DNA from: Adineta ricciae
Taxonomy: Eukaryota; Rotifera; Eurotatoria; Adinetida; Adinetidae
DNA: 64,000 bases
Direction: 5' to 3'
Assembly (NCBI GenBank): GCA_905250025.1
Contig: CAJNOJ010000161.1
Coordinates: 179,972 to 243,971, forward strand
In this document: one piece after another, positions 1-38,285 of the stretch
Layout: each line of letters begins with the position of its first letter
Numbering within the stretch: the first letter of the stretch is position 1
Program-made: the position numbers and the translations under genes
The notes under the pieces: model-generated
The model's input: only the letters and a program-made list of their open reading frames with translations
The model's database searches: none
What the model was told of the DNA's origin: nothing

Positions 1-1272
1 ATCTCAAGTTTATATAGGCAACATCAGTAGTTAATCATGCAGCTGTTATAACACCAACAAAAGATGTTCCGAGTTCGAATTTTTCAGAACTGAAAATCGA
101 CGATAAAATAAAGAAACGCTCCCGAACGGAGTCAGCGCTTTCAACCAAGTCCAGACACAGTATTAAAGCTGAGGATGCCGTTCGTCCGTAAGTCCATATA
201 TTGAAAGAAGTTCCTTTGTTCACTCATTATCGAAAATATTTAGGCTGTATAAAGAAGATGTACTCTATCAAGGTGATACACGTGATCTACCTGAATACCG
301 ATCCCATCGTGATATTCCAAGCTACATTCAAGACACAACTAAAGTACCTGAAGTCATGGAAAAGTCAAAAATGAAAGCATTTTGGGATATTTTTCTTTCG
401 ATGACAAATTTTGATTTATTAGCTGATAAGAAAATGATTATTCTCTGTTTGGTAAAGTATAATTCGTCATAACAGATGCTTTTCAACTCAATCCTTCTCT
501 TTAAGGCCAATGTATGTTCAATGGTTGGCTACTACACACCGTATCTGTTCATTCCGAAATACGCTCAGTTTGAAAGATCAGTTCCAGAAATAAGCTCTAT
601 TTTCCTGCTATCAATTATCAGTAAACTCGATAATATTATTAATATTTACTATTCTCTTAAAATATGTCTCCTTTTTGTTTAGGTTTTAGCAACACTCCTG
701 CTCGATTTCTCTCCGGCTGGATAACGAAACTTCCGTACATGACACCTCTACTCGTGAATAACATCGGTTTAACTGTCGCTGGTGTTTCATCGTTGCTTCT
801 ACCATTTTGCACGAGCCATTTGCTTTTAATTCTGTTTTGCATTGTATGGGGTGGCTTTATTGGTAAAAATCTAATTCGTTTCTCTTCATATAACACATGA
901 ACACTTATATTTTAGCGTTCCATGTTTCATTAAGTCCAGTGATCACATGTGATTTAGTAGGTCTCGAACGTTACAGCAATGCGCTGGGTTTAGTATTGAT
1001 GTTTCGAGGTATCACATCATTGAGTGCTCCACCGGTAAATGAATTTGAAATCAAATGAACTATCTTTTGAGTGTACTATTTAGATTATGGGTGCTATTCG
1101 TGATGTAACAAACAGTTTTGATATTGCATTTATTATTGGTGGTATAAGTTTTCTTGTAAGTGCACTAATGCACTTCCATCTGATGTGGATTAACCATCGT
1201 GAGAAGAAACAAGTAGATGAAACAAAAAAGTCGATCGATATTCAAGCCAATCCAATGGCATCCGATATTTAA
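1..1272 (+). CDS. Monocarboxylate transporter-like (SLC16/MFS) protein, 3' part
   Basis: The gene enters the window already in progress. Predicted exons are about 18-187, 244-451, 506-613, 683-862, 916-1034 and 1085-1272, all with GT-AG introns and joining in one frame. The first two exons give a long hydrophilic stretch rich in Ser, Lys and Arg, like the cytoplasmic loop between membrane segments 6 and 7 of SLC16 carriers. The later exons give alternating hydrophobic segments with an RFLSGW motif and a short charged C-terminal tail ending at 1272. In this family the protein would be a plasma-membrane carrier of monocarboxylates or related small molecules; the substrate cannot be inferred. 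The N-terminal half lies outside the window. A different MFS subfamily is possible, but the large central loop favours SLC16. Confidence 0.7.
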
Positions 1273-1548
1273 TTCTCCTATAAACCATTGAACAATTGCG
1301 CGTTTATCAATTATATTTATGTCTTGTAGTTCTAGTTCTTTTACATTCGATTTCTTGCTATTAATCAGCATCCGGTAATGTTTTCTAGTTGATGAAATTC
1401 AATCTGTGATTGAAGCCAGTCTTGGAAATTTTATATCAATGAAAAACCTTTTCATTTTTCACTCATAAGACATGGAAAATAAAAACGATTTCGTTTCTTT
1501 TCTGTTGTAAAAATATGCAGATTCGAAATGTATCATATATCACCCGTT

Positions 1549-2466
1549 TTATGTGCATTGATATGTGCTATCACATTGACTTGTAAAACGGTTGAATTTC
1601 TGTCCGGCAGGACATGTCGCAGAGAGCGGAGCTAGAACAAAATATTTTACAGTATACCATAATTGAGTTTTAGAAAAGATACGAACCACCGAATGGTTGT
1701 GGACAGTAAAAATATCGACCGATGCCACATTGTGCTGTATCAGGGAAAACACCTTGTCGTGTGCATGTAAAGTAACCTATTTATCAAATGTATACATAAA
1801 GTTGGAAAGTCTGAATGTGTATACAAACATTGATTGCAATTCACTCCGCGATATCCCGGTGCACAATTGCAGTAAGCATAGGTGGTGGCTCCGATTGTTT
1901 GCTCGAAACATGTTCCAGTTTGACATAAACCTGCATAGCAACGTGTGGATATGCCTAAGGTAATCTCAATCAACTAGAAGTGAACTCAGTTAACATATTT
2001 TGTTTACCTTGAATTTCACAATGTTCACCGCTAAAACCCAATTGACACCAACAAACTTGCTGACCGTTCACAACGTTACAAACGCCACTGTTGACACATG
2101 TTTTCGTACATGCTGCTTGCAATGGATTGACAGTACCTGATAAGCAAATGATTCTAACATGCATCTTTCAATCAAATTATGACTTCGGCTCCTTACGACA
2201 AGGTGCATTGACCACAGATTGAATGTTATTCGGACATGTGCATAAAACTGTATTATAGTTCGGTGGCAAATCATAGCAACAATAGCCAGTTAATCCATCG
2301 AACGCACCTGGCACTAGTTGACATGGGTTACTTGCGCACGTTACTATGAACATTCACAGACAAGACATATTGTTGGTATTCATTTGCTAAGTTTACCTGC
2401 TTCACTCAGATCGATAGATTGTTGAAATAGAAGAGTAACTAGGAACAGAACAGATGCACGAGTCAT
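1549..2466 (-). CDS. Secreted cysteine-rich protein with EGF-like repeats and a C-terminal chitin-binding-like module
   Basis: The start at 2466 gives a signal peptide of about 23 residues (MTRASVLFLVTLLFQQ...). Predicted exons are 2397-2466, 2197-2343, 2008-2136, then from 1954 downwards, with two further introns before the stop at 1549-1551. The second exon encodes a Cys-rich stretch beginning CASNPCQLV. The third (C-x3-C-x5-C...CWCQLGFSGEHC) and fourth (CYAGLC...CNCAPGYRGVNC) are typical EGF-like domains. The final exons encode six spaced cysteines (CGIGRYFYC...TCPAGQKFN...C...C) resembling a peritrophin-A/CBM14 chitin-binding domain. The join in this last part uses a non-consensus GTGGTT donor. 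The protein is probably extracellular or cuticular; no ligand can be named. A 20-bp piece of exon 2 recurs at 3240-3260, in a local duplication that also involves the neighbouring ATP-grasp gene. Confidence 0.7.
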
Positions 2467-2554
2467 GATGAGATAAATAATGGGGAAATTTATGAAATAA
2501 TCATTCTTTTATATGATGATGAATTGACATGTTTTCCCTTCTGTGAAGCTTGTT

Positions 2555-2865
2555 AATCTTCTTATTATTGGAAACTGGATACCTCATTTTGTTTTTCTCT
2601 CTGCATATTACGAATAACAAATTTAGAAGAGTCCGACTATATACTACAATCAACTTGATTTTAAAAAAACGAATGTGTTTAGAAAAAAAGATTAGCAAAT
2701 AAAAGATAGAAGAAATGAATGTGATCGTGTAAGAAATATGAAAGTGACTCATTGTATGATCGAATAGCTTCTTTTTCGAAGTGAATTTTCTTTCTCGATC
2801 GAATGTTTCGAACCTGATGCCGCAATTCATAATATAGCCAATAGACTTCTCGCGGGCATAATTCA
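2555..2865 (-). pseudogene. Eroded duplicate of the 3' end of the MysC-like gene
   Basis: This stretch aligns by eye with 3335-3660, the C-terminal coding end and 3' flank of the ATP-grasp gene. Shared blocks include the segment around ACGAATGTGTTTAGAAAA and the following AGATTAGCAAAT run. Relative to the gene, it lacks about 21 nt between TTTTC microhomologies, carries small indels that change the frame of the last codons, and ends near 2860 without the rest of the ATP-grasp domain. It is best read as a truncated, non-functional tandem copy. The order and orientation match the functional unit downstream. Confidence 0.75.
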
Positions 2866-3232
2866 AAATTGATCTAGAATACTTTTAGTTGAAATTGTTA
2901 CATACTTAATGGCGGATCTTTGTACCCTGCCTACTTTCAATGATTCGATAGGCACGAACAAATAGAAATCAGTCTATTTAAAATTCAATTAAGGGTATTA
3001 TTTGTCGAGTTTATAAAACTTAAGTCAACATAGACCAATCACATCGTTTTATCCGGTTTACATGAATTGACTTGATCCCACAAGCGAATGCATTCAACAA
3101 GAAAGTAACACGGTTTGCTACATAGGTTGAACTGTGCTTTTGTTATCGGTGATTGGGTCAAATTTTCTCAGTTAGAATAATTTTCGTCTCAATCGATTTC
3201 CGTTCGATCATTTTTCGCCTACTCAACACTTG
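2866..3232. other. Gene-free spacer in the duplicated block
   Basis: No supported exon was found. A segment around 2900-2970 has weak similarity by eye to 5040-5130, the region just upstream of the MysC-like gene start. That would fit the first copy having lost its internal coding part while keeping some 5' flank. This is tentative. Confidence 0.35.
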
Positions 3233-3262
3233 ATACAAGCTGACATGGGTTACTTGCGCATA
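3233..3262 (-). pseudogene. Remnant of exon 2 of the EGF/chitin-binding gene
   Basis: A 20-base identity to 2320-2340 in the same orientation. Read on the minus strand it still spells CASNPCQLV before running into a stop. It sits just 3' of the intact ATP-grasp gene, exactly where the EGF gene lies relative to the truncated ATP-grasp copy, so it marks the second unit of an old tandem duplication. Confidence 0.6.
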
Positions 3263-3400
3263 AAACATTGTCCATACTCATTTCTCCAGTTCAACGCCTT
3301 CGTTCATGTGCACAGGTCCTGCTGAATAGCCAAATTTTTTCTTATTTGAAATTGATACTTTGGTTTGTGTTTTTCTTTCTGTTTATTACGAAATAAAAAT

Positions 3401-5007
3401 TTAAAACAGTCGACCCATATTACAATCAACGTGATTAAAAAAACGAATGTGTTTAGAAAAAAGATTAGCAAATAGAAGATAGAAGAAATGAATGTGATAG
3501 TGTAAAAGAAACGGAAATGGATCATTCCATGACCAGATAGCTTCTTTTCCGAAGCAAATTTTCTTCAAACATGCAATGATTTTCTTTCTCGATCGTATGT
3601 TTTGAACCAGTTGCCACAATTCATAGGGTAGCCAATAGATTTGTCGCGCAGAAGCAAGCGGTACAATCATTGTCGAAGATTCGTGTTCGAAATAAGCATT
3701 GGCAACTTCTGGATGATTGTAAAACGAAATAATATTTGAATCAACATATGAACGGCATTCAATAGCATAAACTTGCTCATCGTGATCATCAATGATGAAT
3801 TTCATTGATAAATGGCCAGTTAAATTCAACGTTTCAACGTACTGCATACACCATTGTAAGATCCTTGGCTGATCGACATGTTGGTAGGTTGATTTTGGCG
3901 AACAGACAAATAGCTTTATTCTGCCATCGATCGCTGTGACGTGTGTTGAATATTCTTGACCGGAAAGAAACTTTTGTAAAAGATATGGACGATGTTCACT
4001 GATTGATAATTTGTTGATGTATTCGATGGTTTCTGATGGTGTTGATCGAGGTAATATGATTGTTTTCTCGTGATGGAGAGAATCGATGGTAGCTGGCTTG
4101 CAGATGTACGAGCAATCATAATTAAATTGTAATAATTGTTCACGTGATGTTATTAGAAATGAAGATGGAACTGATAGATTCAGAGAACGAGTTCTCTCTA
4201 TAAATGCATATTTGTTCGACATGAATATTGTTTGATCAGATCTTGGATAAAAGATCGAACAATTGTGCGTTGCCAATGCGACTTGTAACTACAAAATCGT
4301 TGCATCATGAGGCTGAATACTATTTACAATCGAATTGTGCATACCCGTTCATCGATGTGAGAATGACAGCACGGAATAAAAACATTGATCTTTTCTCTTC
4401 GAACAATGTTCGCTAGTATTGTTAGATATGCGTCGGATTCTTTGCTTGGCGATGGATGAACATAAAATCTTTCGACGGAATTCGACCATCGATGACCGGT
4501 AAGCCAATTGATTGATTCATCAACAAGAATTATTTGATGGCCCGCTTGATAAAATGATCGACATAGATGAAGTGCTTTTGTTGTACTACCACCGGATATG
4601 AGAATTCGTTTCCGAGATGGATTTGATGAGGGTAAGGATGACTTTTTATGAATGAGATTACAAAAATAGGATAAAATCATTGTTAACAATGTAATCAGGA
4701 GGTTCAACGGAAACATTAAGCCAAATAAAAGAAGACAAACGATTGTGCGTACATAATTATTTAATAAATAAGAAGGTATGTGAGTTAACTGTGAGAGAGT
4801 TTTTATTAGTCGACGATAGGGTGGCCAAGATTGTTCTAAATTATCTTGGGATTGTTGTCTAAGTGCAGAAAAGGTCATTGAATCGTACACATGTTGATGA
4901 AGTTCATTCAAATCTAGACGTTACAGGAGATATTTTTTTATCGATGATATTTCCTAAGTTCAATTAAATTTACCTTGAACTTTATGCAACTCACTTCTCG
5001 TAGACAT
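3401..5007 (-). CDS. MysC-like ATP-grasp ligase (mycosporine-type)
   Basis: Three exons (4974-5007, 4345-4913, 3401-4288) join in frame through introns of 60 and 56 nt to give about 496 residues. Residues about 66-95 form a hydrophobic segment. At about 114 comes ILISGGSTTKALHL, then WLTGHRWS, then the ATP-grasp body with LSGQEYSTH, YAIEC and FYNHPEVANAY, and a tail ending DPFPFLLHYH...NMGRLF. This order and these motifs match, from memory, the MysC ATP-grasp family, which in cyanobacteria, dinoflagellates and cnidarians joins glycine to 4-deoxygadusol to make mycosporine-glycine, a UV-screening compound. No MysA or MysB partner is in the window. Two odd points: the metal-binding Glu-x-Asn is Glu-Cys-Arg here (about residues 378-380), and the LDDK-type motif reads MSNK. 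Activity may therefore be changed or lost. A related ATP-grasp with another substrate is possible. Confidence 0.72.
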
Positions 5008-5641
5008 AATTTAAAAGTGAACTGAAATGATCTCAGTTAGAAATTCATGACTCATAGTGGACCTTTGCCCTTCTTTCTTTGTTTCTAACCATTCAATAGA
5101 AGATATTCCGCCATCGATATCGACGAACGAACAGAAATAGTATAGAACCAACAACAAATTATCAAGTTTAACGTATTGTTTACGAGTTTGTTGTAACCAA
5201 ATTTCATATCGATTAGTTTTATCGAATGTGCGACCAGAAAAATCACATCATCGATTTCTTTCTTCATACGAGAAAAGCCTCTTGGATATTACTAAACGAC
5301 ATAATTAGTGCACACATACAGCTAATCAAGGACTTTATTGATCAATAGACTATGAGCATACTGATTCCGCAATATTCTAAAAGCAATTTGTATGAATTTC
5401 ATGTAGATAATAATTAACATGTTATTTTGTCATTATAAATCCTTTGTAAACAACATCTGTCATGGTTTTGATGGAAAAACGAACTTGATATTGCAATACA
5501 TATCATTATCGATGTAATCTTTAGAGATTTGTGTGTCGTTGACTTTATCATGGTATGACACATTTCTAATTATACTCGGAAAACGAACAACCTTTTATTT
5601 TTGTTGAGATTTTCATCCGAAGTGATGTACAAGAACAATTT
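5008..5641. other. Intergenic, 5' flank of the MysC-like gene
   Basis: About 630 bp upstream of the MysC-like start and downstream of the next minus-strand gene. Only short, unconvincing open frames are present. No repeat or RNA gene was recognised. Confidence 0.5.
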
Positions 5642-6507
5642 CTACACAGGTGATTCGCGTATGCATCGTGCATTTGTCGAGTCATGTTCATCGTCTTCGC
5701 TTTGGTTACGTCGTGTTCCATCAGCGGGTGAATAACATATGCTATATCGAACAGCAGCGATGTTCTCCACGCTTTTGCGATGTAAATCAAGCAGGCTTCG
5801 TCGGATATTCGATGGAATCATGTATGGATTGAGTAACCGATCGGCTTTAGAAGGATACTTTGTTATTGAACAAGTTGAGATTGTTGAACCTCGCGGTCGT
5901 TCTTTTTGCAATAAATGCGTAGTTAATGGTGATCCCGCGTTTGAATTTGTATATTCATCGATCGTTGTATCGTACATTGGTGTGATAAAGGCACCGGCAG
6001 CAGAAAATCGTGGTTTGGAATGAATCACCATATCACTTGTACGATGAACAACAGTAATATGATTCAAATTCATTGGTGGTTTAGCAGTTGGACGATACGG
6101 TATATCACGATGACGAATACGTAGTAATTCTGAATGGCGAATGAAGACAAAGATCGAGCCAAGCCACAATAATAGCACACAGATAATGATCATAATTTCA
6201 GGTACGCGAAGTGGATCAGGTCGATCATCTAAAGAAAGTAATTGTTAGAGATGAAAAGAACAAAACTAGTCGTTTTTCTACCATCATCAGTTTGGGCAAC
6301 AGCGGTTATATCAATACTATGATTCGCACTCGTGGATGGGCGAACTTGAACGATAAATTTCTGTGCTTCATTGATTAATAAAATCATTTGCTCTGTATCA
6401 GTCTAAATTTCATTAATATATCTTTAACAAAGTTCTTAACAAAACGAAATGTTTACCTTGTTTGATTTCTCCAGTATCATGATTGATCAAATCACAATCA
6501 AACTCGT
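5642..6507 (-). CDS. Single-pass membrane protein, possibly FNDC4/5-like; C-terminal exons
   Basis: Three exons are supported: 6457-6507, 6282-6392 and 5642-6228. They join in frame if the second uses the acceptor ending ATACAG. The first two give a beta-rich stretch that could be the end of a fibronectin type III domain (FIVQVRPSTS, IDITAVAQTDD). Next come PLRVPEIMIIICVLLLW, a transmembrane segment, and a long cytoplasmic tail of about 160 residues rich in Ser, Arg and Pro. The order of FN3 end, short linker with PE, and membrane helix recalls FNDC4/FNDC5 (irisin precursor), but the tail is much longer and similarity is weak. The signal peptide and first exons were not found; they should lie between 6508 and about 7800 on the minus strand. 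The true function is unknown. Confidence 0.4.
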
Positions 6508-33076: not shown

Positions 33077-34327
33077 TTAATATAAAACGACGTTTTTATA
33101 TTCTTCGAATGCTTGCTTTAATCGCAAACATCCTTCACGTAATTGATCACAGTCAGCAATTGCAATACAAAGTCGAAGACAATTCGCTAAACGTGCTTTT
33201 GATTCTGGATCATGAGCAAATAATCGGCCCGGTTTAAATGAAACACCATGCTTTTGAGCAATAACTAATAATTGATCACAATCAATCGCTGTGTCATTAA
33301 ACTTCACCCATAGAAAATAACCGCCCGTTGGTCGTCGACATGTGATGTACTGTTCACCGAATGTTCGCATCAATTCATCGTACATAACATTCATTCGCTT
33401 GCTGTATTCAACACATAATTTTTCATCGATAAAACGTTTCAATGAACCTTGAACTAAGATTCGATCGACAATACCAGATGTAAAAGCACTTGCGCCACCA
33501 CCACTGTGAATTAAACCATAACGAGCCATGGCATTAACGTGTTCATGACTAGCACACGCGAAACCTAATCGTAACGAGGGTGTGAGAAGTTTGGAAAATG
33601 ATTGTAGTGCTATCACAGTTCCTGCTGCATGATATGCAGCGAATGATTTCGGATGTTCGACGAGTTTCTCATTGTAATGATGACCATTACCGTTCGGCTC
33701 TTTTTTTGAATAATCGAGAAAATGATAGACTTCATCGGCAACGATTAAGAAGTGATATTTCAAACTTAGTTGAACTAATAGTTCACGACGATGATGCGAC
33801 ATTGTAAAACCACTTGGATTTTGAAACGTTGGCACCACATAAATCATTTTTGGTTTAGCGCGTTCAAGCACATCGGTAATAAATTTCGAATCAATAATCA
33901 TTCCGTCGTCATCGGTTTCATAAGATATGATATGCAAATGATGATCACGGAAAATCGATAATGCATAGAGATAGGATGGACATTCGACAAGTACAGTATC
34001 ACCGGCTCGAAGAAACATTGTACAAAGTTGATCGAGAATAGCCGAGACGCCATTGGTGATGAAAATATTTTCATAACTTAATGTCGCGATTCGACATGTA
34101 TGATGAAGAAAATTGACGATATGATGACGTAAATCGGGATTACCTTCATCTTCTGCATAGACCCAATGTGTACTTTGTTGTGTACTGATTTTGTCATTGA
34201 ATAACTCGTGCGTTGCCTTGGACAACAAATCGTATGGAATCATGGTCGCATCTGGTTCGCCAACAGCGAGTTTGATGGTGGTTGTATCAGATCTTTTGAT
34301 CGTTCTGTCTTCCAAATCGAGATCCAT
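33077..34327 (-). CDS. PLP-dependent class I/II aminotransferase (ARO8/2-aminoadipate transaminase type)
   Basis: A single exon of 416 residues from the ATG at 34327; a splice acceptor lies 7 nt upstream. Fold-type I aminotransferase features are all present: HWVYAEDEGNPDLR near the N-terminus, ITNGVSAILDQL, VPTFQNPSG (Asn that hydrogen-bonds PLP, about residue 170), IVADEVYHFL (Asp binding the pyridine nitrogen, about 198) and SFSKLLTPSLRLGF (Schiff-base Lys, about 246), ending with RPTGGYFLWV and the substrate-binding Arg in LRLCIA. This family converts amino acids such as 2-aminoadipate or aromatic amino acids to 2-oxo acids. No mitochondrial presequence is evident. The lack of introns in a window where nearly all genes have many suggests retroposition or lateral transfer. 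Confidence 0.85.
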   Translation of the reverse strand: MDLDLEDRTIKRSDTTTIKLAVGEPDATMIPYDLLSKATHELFNDKISTQQSTHWVYAEDEGNPDLRHHIVNFLHHTCRIATLSYENIFITNGVSAILDQLCTMFLRAGDTVLVECPSYLYALSIFRDHHLHIISYETDDDGMIIDSKFITDVLERAKPKMIYVVPTFQNPSGFTMSHHRRELLVQLSLKYHFLIVADEVYHFLDYSKKEPNGNGHHYNEKLVEHPKSFAAYHAAGTVIALQSFSKLLTPSLRLGFACASHEHVNAMARYGLIHSGGGASAFTSGIVDRILVQGSLKRFIDEKLCVEYSKRMNVMYDELMRTFGEQYITCRRPTGGYFLWVKFNDTAIDCDQLLVIAQKHGVSFKPGRLFAHDPESKARLANCLRLCIAIADCDQLREGCLRLKQAFEEYKNVVLY

Positions 34328-34522
34328 GTTTATTCTAAAGAAAAATTCTACTTGGAAAATATCAAAGTTAGACAATGGGATTTCTTCTGAAAAGATTTCG
34401 GACGTTTTTCTTTATTCCACCATTTCGCATAGAAAAAAAAACGAACAAGTCAGCGAAAAACAATTGATGGAGTCTATGAATGTATTCTTCTATTAAATTT
34501 GCTTTGGACTTCGATGGAATAT

Positions 34523-36494: not shown

Positions 36495-38285
36495 CTAAAC
36501 AGTCACTTTGACACGTGCTTCTTGAAGAACTGTACAAAGAAATTCCAATTCTTCATCCGTCATTTCCACGTTCAATATCAGACGAATGGATGGTTCGGGT
36601 AAATGATGTTCATCATTGAGATATCTTGCAACTGTTATTGTTATTCCGCGTGTTTGGGCGAACTCAACTATTTCTTCCAAACGAGCGACAGTGTTCTGCG
36701 AGTTCGTCAAACGCAAGTGTTTCAGTGGTGAAATATCTTCTCCGACAATGAGATAACCTTTAATATCTAATAATTTCCGATGTAAACGTTTACTTTTCTC
36801 CATTAATGTATCACATAAGGTCGTATCTTTCTCTTCCATGATATTCAATGCTTCAATTGCAGCTGCCGCAAGCAATGGTGGTAATGAAGCTGAAAAACAA
36901 TAGCCTTGCGCAGAGAGACGTTGATGATCAACAACAAACGAACTTCCCACAGCAAACCCACCGATTGAACCCACAGAATATTCCAATGACGAAGAAATTA
37001 AATCAATTTTTCGTCGATCAATGTTATAATATTCCGTTACACCGCGTCCGGTTTGTCCGATTGTTCCAAATGAAACACTTTCATCCATGAAGATTCGATA
37101 TTTGTACTGATATTTCAGTTCAACCATACGCGGCAGTGGACACAGATCACCATAGTTCATGTATAAACCCTCGATGATAAGAAAACGTCGTAACGTTCGT
37201 GCCTTTTTCGGGTTCTTCTTGTCATGAATGTCTTGTTCAGCTAACAAGCGTTCGAGATCGGAAATATCATTGTGACGGAACCATTTGACTGTACTTCGAG
37301 ATGCTTCGACACCTTTTTGAATTGCATAGTGAACACCTTCATCGACGAACAGTATATCGTTTCGTTTGGAGTAAGCTTCAAAAGAAAACCTTCGTTTTCT
37401 CAAATCAACAAAGATAAACTTTTTTCTTTCAAACCTGGAATTATACTGGCGACGGTTGAAAAGCCATACGAATAGATAATACCTTCTTCACAATTGAAAA
37501 AATGAGCTAAACGTTCTTCTAATTCGAGATGTATATCGATTGTACCATAAAACCTAAACAAAATCAATCAATGAAACACCGTGATCAGTATATTCATCGA
37601 AGCTTGTCACGTCTCCCCGTTCGCGATTGTCAATGTTTTCTTTTGTAGCTATTTTAAGAAACCAAAACATTCGTATGTATAGAAATGACTCAAATTTACA
37701 ACAGAATTCAGTTTTGTTCGATGACGACGTTTGAGAACTGCGTAATACTACCCTTTAGGAGCGAAATACGTAACATGATTATTCTTATCAATCCGACGTA
37801 ATTAATCAATAAACAAAAATTCTCGTTTGAATCTCGACAAAAGTGTACTTGTATTTACCCGCGTGGACCACATGAGCCAACACCATACTTTTGTACAGCT
37901 TGTATAGCTTTGTCTGCAATGCGAGGATTACCGACAAAGTTGAGAAAATTGAATGTAGCGAAATTGAGACTTTTCTTTCCATCGATTTCGATTGTCTTAC
38001 CAACAATTCCGTCTAAAACTCGAACATTTAACGCGGGATGATTGGCATCAACGGGCGGTACTAACGGTTCCGGCTGCCACTCGTCGATTAACTCTTGTTT
38101 TTCTTTTTCAGTTAATTTCTTTTCGATCCGACGAGGTTTACGAAATAGAATAAGCCAGAGTACAGTTAGAACAAGAAAGATTTCGAATAATAAATGATAA
38201 AATGGTGTTTCCTTGAAAGATTCTAATAAACTATAAAAGTCTGTTGCTAACGAAGCGACATTATCCTGATTCGCCGATGAACCCA
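36495..38285 (-). CDS. SPTLC1: Serine palmitoyltransferase subunit 1
   Basis: Three exons joined at GPRG|FYG (intron about 37552-37858) and IIP|AYSKR (about 37382-37434). The N-terminus (from MGSSANQDN) has one membrane segment ([17 protein letters not shown]), then [45 protein letters not shown] and [15 protein letters not shown]. The enzyme condenses serine and palmitoyl-CoA in the first step of sphingolipid synthesis in the ER. As in other SPTLC1 proteins the PLP lysine is absent; SPTLC2, not in this window, supplies it. The Cys in GSCGPRG matches the residue mutated in human sensory neuropathy. An upstream in-frame stretch exists but lies behind an acceptor, so it is taken as 5' UTR. Confidence 0.93.

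Follow-up and report, generated by a model that had tools for sequence, protein, structure and literature searches.

The MysC-family gene and its surroundings

The window, the whole stretch of 64,000 bp of Adineta ricciae DNA that was analyzed, carries a gene of the MysC family near its left end. The gene lies on the reverse strand, between genes that recur in the same order on another contig of the assembly (C2; the window itself is part of contig C161). The features of this region are as follows.

18..1269, forward strand: left-hand neighbor, recognized by eye as a transporter-like gene; collinear counterpart C2:1020308-1021501
1673..2353, reverse strand: left-hand neighbor, recognized by eye as a secreted EGF-like gene; collinear counterpart C2:1021946-1022753
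2640..2864 (C161:182611-182835), reverse strand: remnant of another MysC C-terminus, with two TAA interruptions (e-value 5.2e-16)
5007-3401, reverse strand: whole MysC-family gene, three exons, 496-residue product
4974..5007, reverse strand: exon 1 with the start codon, the least certain exon
4345..4913, reverse strand: exon 2, membrane helix and N-terminal lobe with the ISGG-TTKAL and WLTGHRWS motifs
3401..4288, reverse strand: exon 3, ATP-grasp domain (predicted model and fold match), DPFPFLLHYH tail and stop codon
3740..3802, reverse strand: degraded catalytic block, running from K364 to D384, where the family has D and H respectively; coordinates from the exon model
5008..5644, no strand: short spacer of 637 bp; the collinear C2 interval is about 7.8 kb
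5645..6244, reverse strand: right-hand neighbor, a membrane-protein gene; collinear counterpart C2:1032435-1033040, 38% identical

The two introns of the window gene are 60 and 56 nt long and both are GT-AG. No stop, frameshift or broken splice site occurs across its 496 codons. Exon 1 is the least certain because its counterpart in the C2 copy was not established. The protein matches the NF005315/PRK06849 model with an e-value of 2.2e-81 but falls below the curated cut-off; the MysC of a cyanobacterial mysABC cluster scores 489.3 bits against the same model. Homology to mysABC-cluster MysC spans most of the length of the window protein. A Pfam search with the protein gave no ATP-grasp match above the cut-off, and the three matches from a PDB sequence search are all to the membrane helix only. 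An ATP-grasp fold is predicted for exon 3, although this model says little about stability since the alignment used to build it was that of the protein's relatives. The structure alignments include 25 of 32 cyanobacterial rows. A comparison of MysC and MysD profiles was weak (probability 9.6). The gene model, the motifs, the NF005315 match and the tree described below agree with the preliminary description, which had placed a MysC-like ATP-grasp protein of 496 residues at 3401..5007. An unrelated ATP-grasp family is ruled out by the motifs, by NF005315 and by the tree with cyanobacterial MysC.

MysC paralogues in the assembly

The search for paralogues covered the whole A. ricciae assembly (130 Mb, 1033 contigs). 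MysC-type matches were found at C2:1023100-1024644 (reverse strand), C202:25343 and C202:104496, along with a wreck at C137:238049-238973 and the remnant in the window, which lies 0.5 kb downstream of the window gene. The C2 paralogue (494 aa) is the nearest relative found of the window protein, with 51% identity; the MysC of cyanobacteria stand further off. The C2 MysC has an intron where the window gene has its intron 2. The two C202 proteins, each of 509 aa in a single frame, are 92% identical to one another and about 46% identical to C2. They matched 45 cyanobacterial places at 40-51% identity and two further at 31%, and the idea that they belong to a family other than MysC was rejected. 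The wreck on C137 is of the C202 type and adjoins a MysD gene. Contig C202 also carries a near-identical GPCR-MysC-LicD-type block twice, 79 kb apart (C202:102996-107321 and C202:23843-28171).

The tree and the residue counts given below were made from 32 cyanobacterial MysC, which are the only prokaryotic rows, and four rotifer proteins. All four rotifer proteins fall on one side of a branch with support of 100/99. Within them the window and C2 proteins are sisters, also with support of 100/99.

A collinear block on C2

Positions 18-6244 of the window match C2:1020308-1033040 in the same order and orientation, so that both MysC copies are flanked by collinear genes. Collinearity extends beyond the left edge of the window (C161 from 178898, C2 from 1019185). 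The flanking genes are poorly characterized by domain searches: one frame of the C2 counterpart of the EGF-like gene had no Pfam match, and the membrane-protein gene on the right matches DUF4808 at only 17.9 bits, below the cut-off. The two sides differ between MysC and the membrane-protein gene, where the C2 interval of about 7.8 kb holds MysA, a MysB candidate, transporter-like frames and a mitochondrial carrier. A tblastn search of the window for traces of MysA and MysB up to an e-value of 10 gave best values of only 1.2 and 4.0.

The simplest reading of these alignments is that this is an old duplicated block, of which the window side would have lost MysA and MysB. The duplication is probably an ohnologue pair from the bdelloid tetraploidy. 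The transporter-like frames, which had no Pfam match, and the mitochondrial carrier lie beside MysA and the MysB candidate (L018:3405-6341; C2:1028904-1031840), and transport of a precursor or product is possible. Elsewhere in the window, two adjacent class I/II aminotransferase frames occur on the reverse strand at 33080-34411 and 36498-37487.

An intact-looking MysA-D set

The C2 cluster comprises an intact MysC, a MysA and the MysB candidate, with small introns in each. Together with the MysD genes on other contigs, these genes were located as follows.

C2:1025798-1026561 + 1026618-1027221: MysA / DDGS, two exons, 455 aa
C2:1027562-1028354: MysB candidate, three exons, 224 aa, named from the O-methyltransferase family (PF01596) and its position in the cluster
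C137:236595-237629: MysD, 345 aa, 59% identity over 345 aa to Chroococcus MysD

The C2 MysA is 58.5% identical over 400 aa to Chroococcus MysA. Among solved structures it matches 5tpr, which we take to be the Anabaena DDGS, with an e-value of 9.2e-159 (532 bits), and 4p53, presumably an EEVS, with 5.4e-75 (256 bits). The next match is at 108 bits, and the match to 5tpr exceeds those to the dehydroquinate synthases among the matches listed. These scores place the protein nearer to DDGS than to either EEVS or dehydroquinate synthase. In the whole assembly, MysA-like genes consist of the one on C2, a fusion on C263 and one weak match. The C263 cyclase was rejected as a MysA, being a fusion of DHQS and EPSP synthase in a long open frame (C263:41500-44019; L019:5501-8020). 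The same contig has a second long open frame that fuses chorismate mutase with a chorismate-binding domain (C263:36277-38271; L019:278-2272). These shikimate-type genes in an animal assembly are either acquired or on a foreign contig.

The label MysB is mainly positional, since the C2 candidate is only 31% identical over 180 aa to cyanobacterial MysB and has four paralogues at 50-57% elsewhere in the genome. MysD is more clearly defined. Two more full-length copies on C142 (60% over 344 aa) bring the genome to three, and the best solved D-Ala ligase matches the C137 protein with only 60.1 bits. Besides the MysD copies there is a strong D-Ala-D-Ala ligase match (e-value 1.3e-43) at C271:45304-45819. 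Neither MysA nor MysB turned up in the parts of C202 and C137 examined. Near the MysD and the MysC wreck on C137 is a bacterial GGDEF-like frame, identified by eye (C137:239291-240595; L023:5792-7096), perhaps part of an island of acquired genes.

The C2 and C202 MysC are homologous to cyanobacterial MysC and have an intact D and E-x-N-x-R block. The preliminary description had looked to MysA and MysB homologs elsewhere in the genome as a test, and the C2 MysA and MysB candidate provide them. Read from sequence, the intact-looking pathway genes suggest that the animal could make its own sunscreen. The idea of UV defense, first attached to the window gene, should belong with the genes on C2, C202, C137 and C142 instead.

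The host and contamination

A methyltransferase of family PF01555 is encoded on C2, and another, with one in-frame stop, on C5. Directly behind the C2 gene is a chromodomain (PF00385, e-value 3e-20 after two exon parts are joined). According to PMC8885841, the methyltransferase-chromodomain gene N4CMT occurs in bdelloids but neither in Monogononta nor in any other sequenced eukaryote. By this N4CMT-like gene the host is very probably a bdelloid rotifer, in line with the rotifer genome suspected at the outset. The marker shares contig C2 with the MysA/B/C cluster. Contamination is ruled out by the introns, the collinear animal-type flanks and the host marker on C2.

Cyanobacterial relatives and known systems

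The C2 MysC matches 41 of 386 cyanobacterial genomes at an e-value of 1e-40 or better, in 45 places and at 43-49% identity. The 32 cyanobacterial loci that we compared are 29 of these matches and three loci, again all cyanobacterial, from a separate contig scan. MysB was found beside 31 of the 32, MysA beside 26 and a MysD-like match beside 22, in flanks of about 1.5 kb for 29 loci and about 8 kb for three, so absences are not proof. One locus (L040) has MysD in its flanks and neither MysA nor MysB. Linkage to MysA and MysB is usual in cyanobacteria and not strictly required, and the window gene is unlinked to both. That the prokaryotic kin found are cyanobacterial is what lateral acquisition, proposed in the preliminary description, predicts.

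The MysC of Chroococcus sp. FPU101 (L027) shares with the window protein near-full-length homology, an N-terminal membrane helix, the order of the motifs and the C-terminal tail. The window copy differs in having introns, in lacking MysA and MysB neighbors and in lacking the D, N, P, R and H of the catalytic block. A related animal system is the shinorine set of the anthozoans Acropora and Nematostella, which from its description in PMC3640398 likewise consists of animal homologs of the four-gene route. It belongs to another phylum, and its second amino-acid step is assigned there to an NRPS-like gene, whereas that of the rotifer is a MysD ATP-grasp. Within the animals, this 2013 paper gives anthozoans as the sole carriers of such genes. 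The DDGS-OMT-ATPG cluster of Phaffia rhodozyma, as described in PMC10057719, is likewise a compact eukaryotic cluster of cyclase, O-methyltransferase and ATP-grasp genes, in a different host. The account in PMC7826186 includes the vertebrate gadusol route through EEVS and MT-Ox, whose sedoheptulose-7-phosphate cyclase is related to the rotifer one, and a green algal mosaic cluster with a MysC-related ATP-grasp. The rotifer cyclase departs from the EEVS route in its scores to 5tpr and 4p53 given above. The reaction order MysA, B, C follows PMC7826186, and mysD is placed in it by PMC10384724.

Loss of catalytic residues and the fate of the window gene

The window gene has lost 20 of 78 residues, all of which are invariant across the 32 cyanobacterial MysC and the three rotifer paralogues. 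In C2 numbering the losses include D362K, N378R, R380Y, H382D and E301K, and P379 is gone too. The family motif ECNPRxH reads ECRSYxD in the window protein. Of the 114 columns invariant in cyanobacterial MysC, C2 keeps 91 and the window gene 67. In ATP-grasp enzymes, an acidic strand residue and E-x-N-x-R are the metal/ATP residues. The window protein has this set no longer: K replaces D at the metal/ATP site, and only the first E of the motif is kept. The Glu of IEC and the Lys of ICK are still present. Because the metal/ATP residues are lost here and kept in all 32 cyanobacterial MysC and the three intact paralogues, the window copy is probably a paralogue that has no catalytic activity rather than a mycosporine-glycine synthase. 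The role of mycosporine-glycine maker given to it in the preliminary description is not supported, and MysA and MysB are also missing from its block.

The gene has also changed quickly. Its end branch in the tree is 1.27, against 0.38 for C2. In a relative-rate test with a C202 protein (C202a) as outgroup, 67 changes fall on the window side and 28 on C2 (p = 6e-5), and each of the six outgroups tried gives the same result, with p between 6e-5 and 0.0046. Base changes specific to each branch come to 74, 56 and 78 at the first, second and third codon positions for the window gene and to 37, 32 and 74 for C2 (471 codons). Between the two genes NG86 gives a dN of 0.385 and a dS of 1.42, the latter near saturation. 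The N-terminal lobe is best kept, with 66% identity to C2 vs. 42-53% elsewhere. In neutral simulations with 60, 100 and 150 amino-acid changes, none of 200 runs at any level stayed free of stops, which argues that the frame was under selection for at least much of its history. Together these comparisons point to relaxed constraint and a lost active site in a frame that selection would have kept for at least much of the time.

We give roughly even odds to the reading that the window gene is turning into a pseudogene, having been under selection until recently and now drifting without function. The fast branch and the lost invariant residues are consistent with this, as is the lack of its partners MysA and MysB in the window block, and MysC copies do decay in this genome, as the wrecks at 2640-2864 of the window and on C137 show. 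An unbroken reading frame with sound splice sites is not what it would lead one to expect. Alternatively, and somewhat doubtfully, the gene may be maintained as a pseudoenzyme, anchored in the membrane and without catalysis, whose role is to bind or regulate the working MysC. The frame, splice sites, membrane helix and N-terminal lobe have been kept while the active site is gone, as such a role would require; however, the changes at codon positions 1 and 2 are about double those of C2, as in plain relaxation. In its broadest form, this proposal has the bdelloid making one- and two-amino-acid mycosporines via laterally acquired, duplicated and spliced MysA-D genes, with the window gene as a maintained pseudoenzyme that tunes or anchors the active ligase, which we regard as unlikely.

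The history of the block can be told differently as well. Only C2 might have gained MysA and the MysB candidate, by insertion into an ancestral block in which MysC stood alone and served another purpose. The window block has no trace of either gene, and the extra C2 segment also carries unrelated genes, both of which suit an insertion. Linked inheritance is nevertheless simpler, since cyanobacterial MysC loci mostly already have MysA and MysB, and we think an insertion improbable. That the window gene is still a ligase with a rebuilt active site, its K, R and Y serving a changed use of substrate or metal and kept for a new reaction, is very improbable: an open frame where neutral decay would break it, the well-kept N-terminal lobe and the retained Glu of IEC and Lys of ICK would fit, but two of the three expected metal-holding residues are now basic, the neighboring P, R and H and the Glu of QEF are also replaced, and every replaced residue is invariant in cyanobacterial MysC and the intact rotifer paralogues.

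A probably disabled copy and a kept cluster

We consider it quite likely, from the sequence comparisons, that the window gene is a duplicate of the genuine MysC of the C2 cluster, most likely a non-catalytic relic or pseudoenzyme, and that any synthesis would proceed via other genes. An ancestral block would have been duplicated, with the C2 side retaining the MysC-MysA-MysB cluster. The window side would have lost MysA and MysB, and its MysC the catalytic metal/ATP residues, with the open frame, splice sites and predicted fold retained. The C2 MysA would form the desmethyl-4-deoxygadusol ring, which the C2 O-methyltransferase would then methylate. MysC, from C2 and the two C202 copies, would attach one amino acid and MysD, from C137 and the two C142 copies, a second, with a putative role in UV protection. 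Several points weigh against this account. The frame appears to have been kept by selection, so the window protein may do something; the Glu of IEC and Lys of ICK are retained; the MysB label is mainly positional; and MysA and MysB could be a later C2 insertion that was never in the window block.

Rotifers containing MAAs are on record. We found no published report of rotifer mys genes in the literature searched, from which preprints were absent and in which subscription papers were few. Systems of this kind are known and, as far as searched, the host is new. More important than the window gene, the disabled MysC copy that the preliminary description picked out, is the MysA-D set that looks intact on other contigs. 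The window gene would be a case in which an acquired enzyme gene decays in one half of a duplicated block and the cluster persists in the other. With a MysA-D set in a bdelloid genome, the question of whether rotifers make their own sunscreen becomes directly testable in food-controlled cultures.
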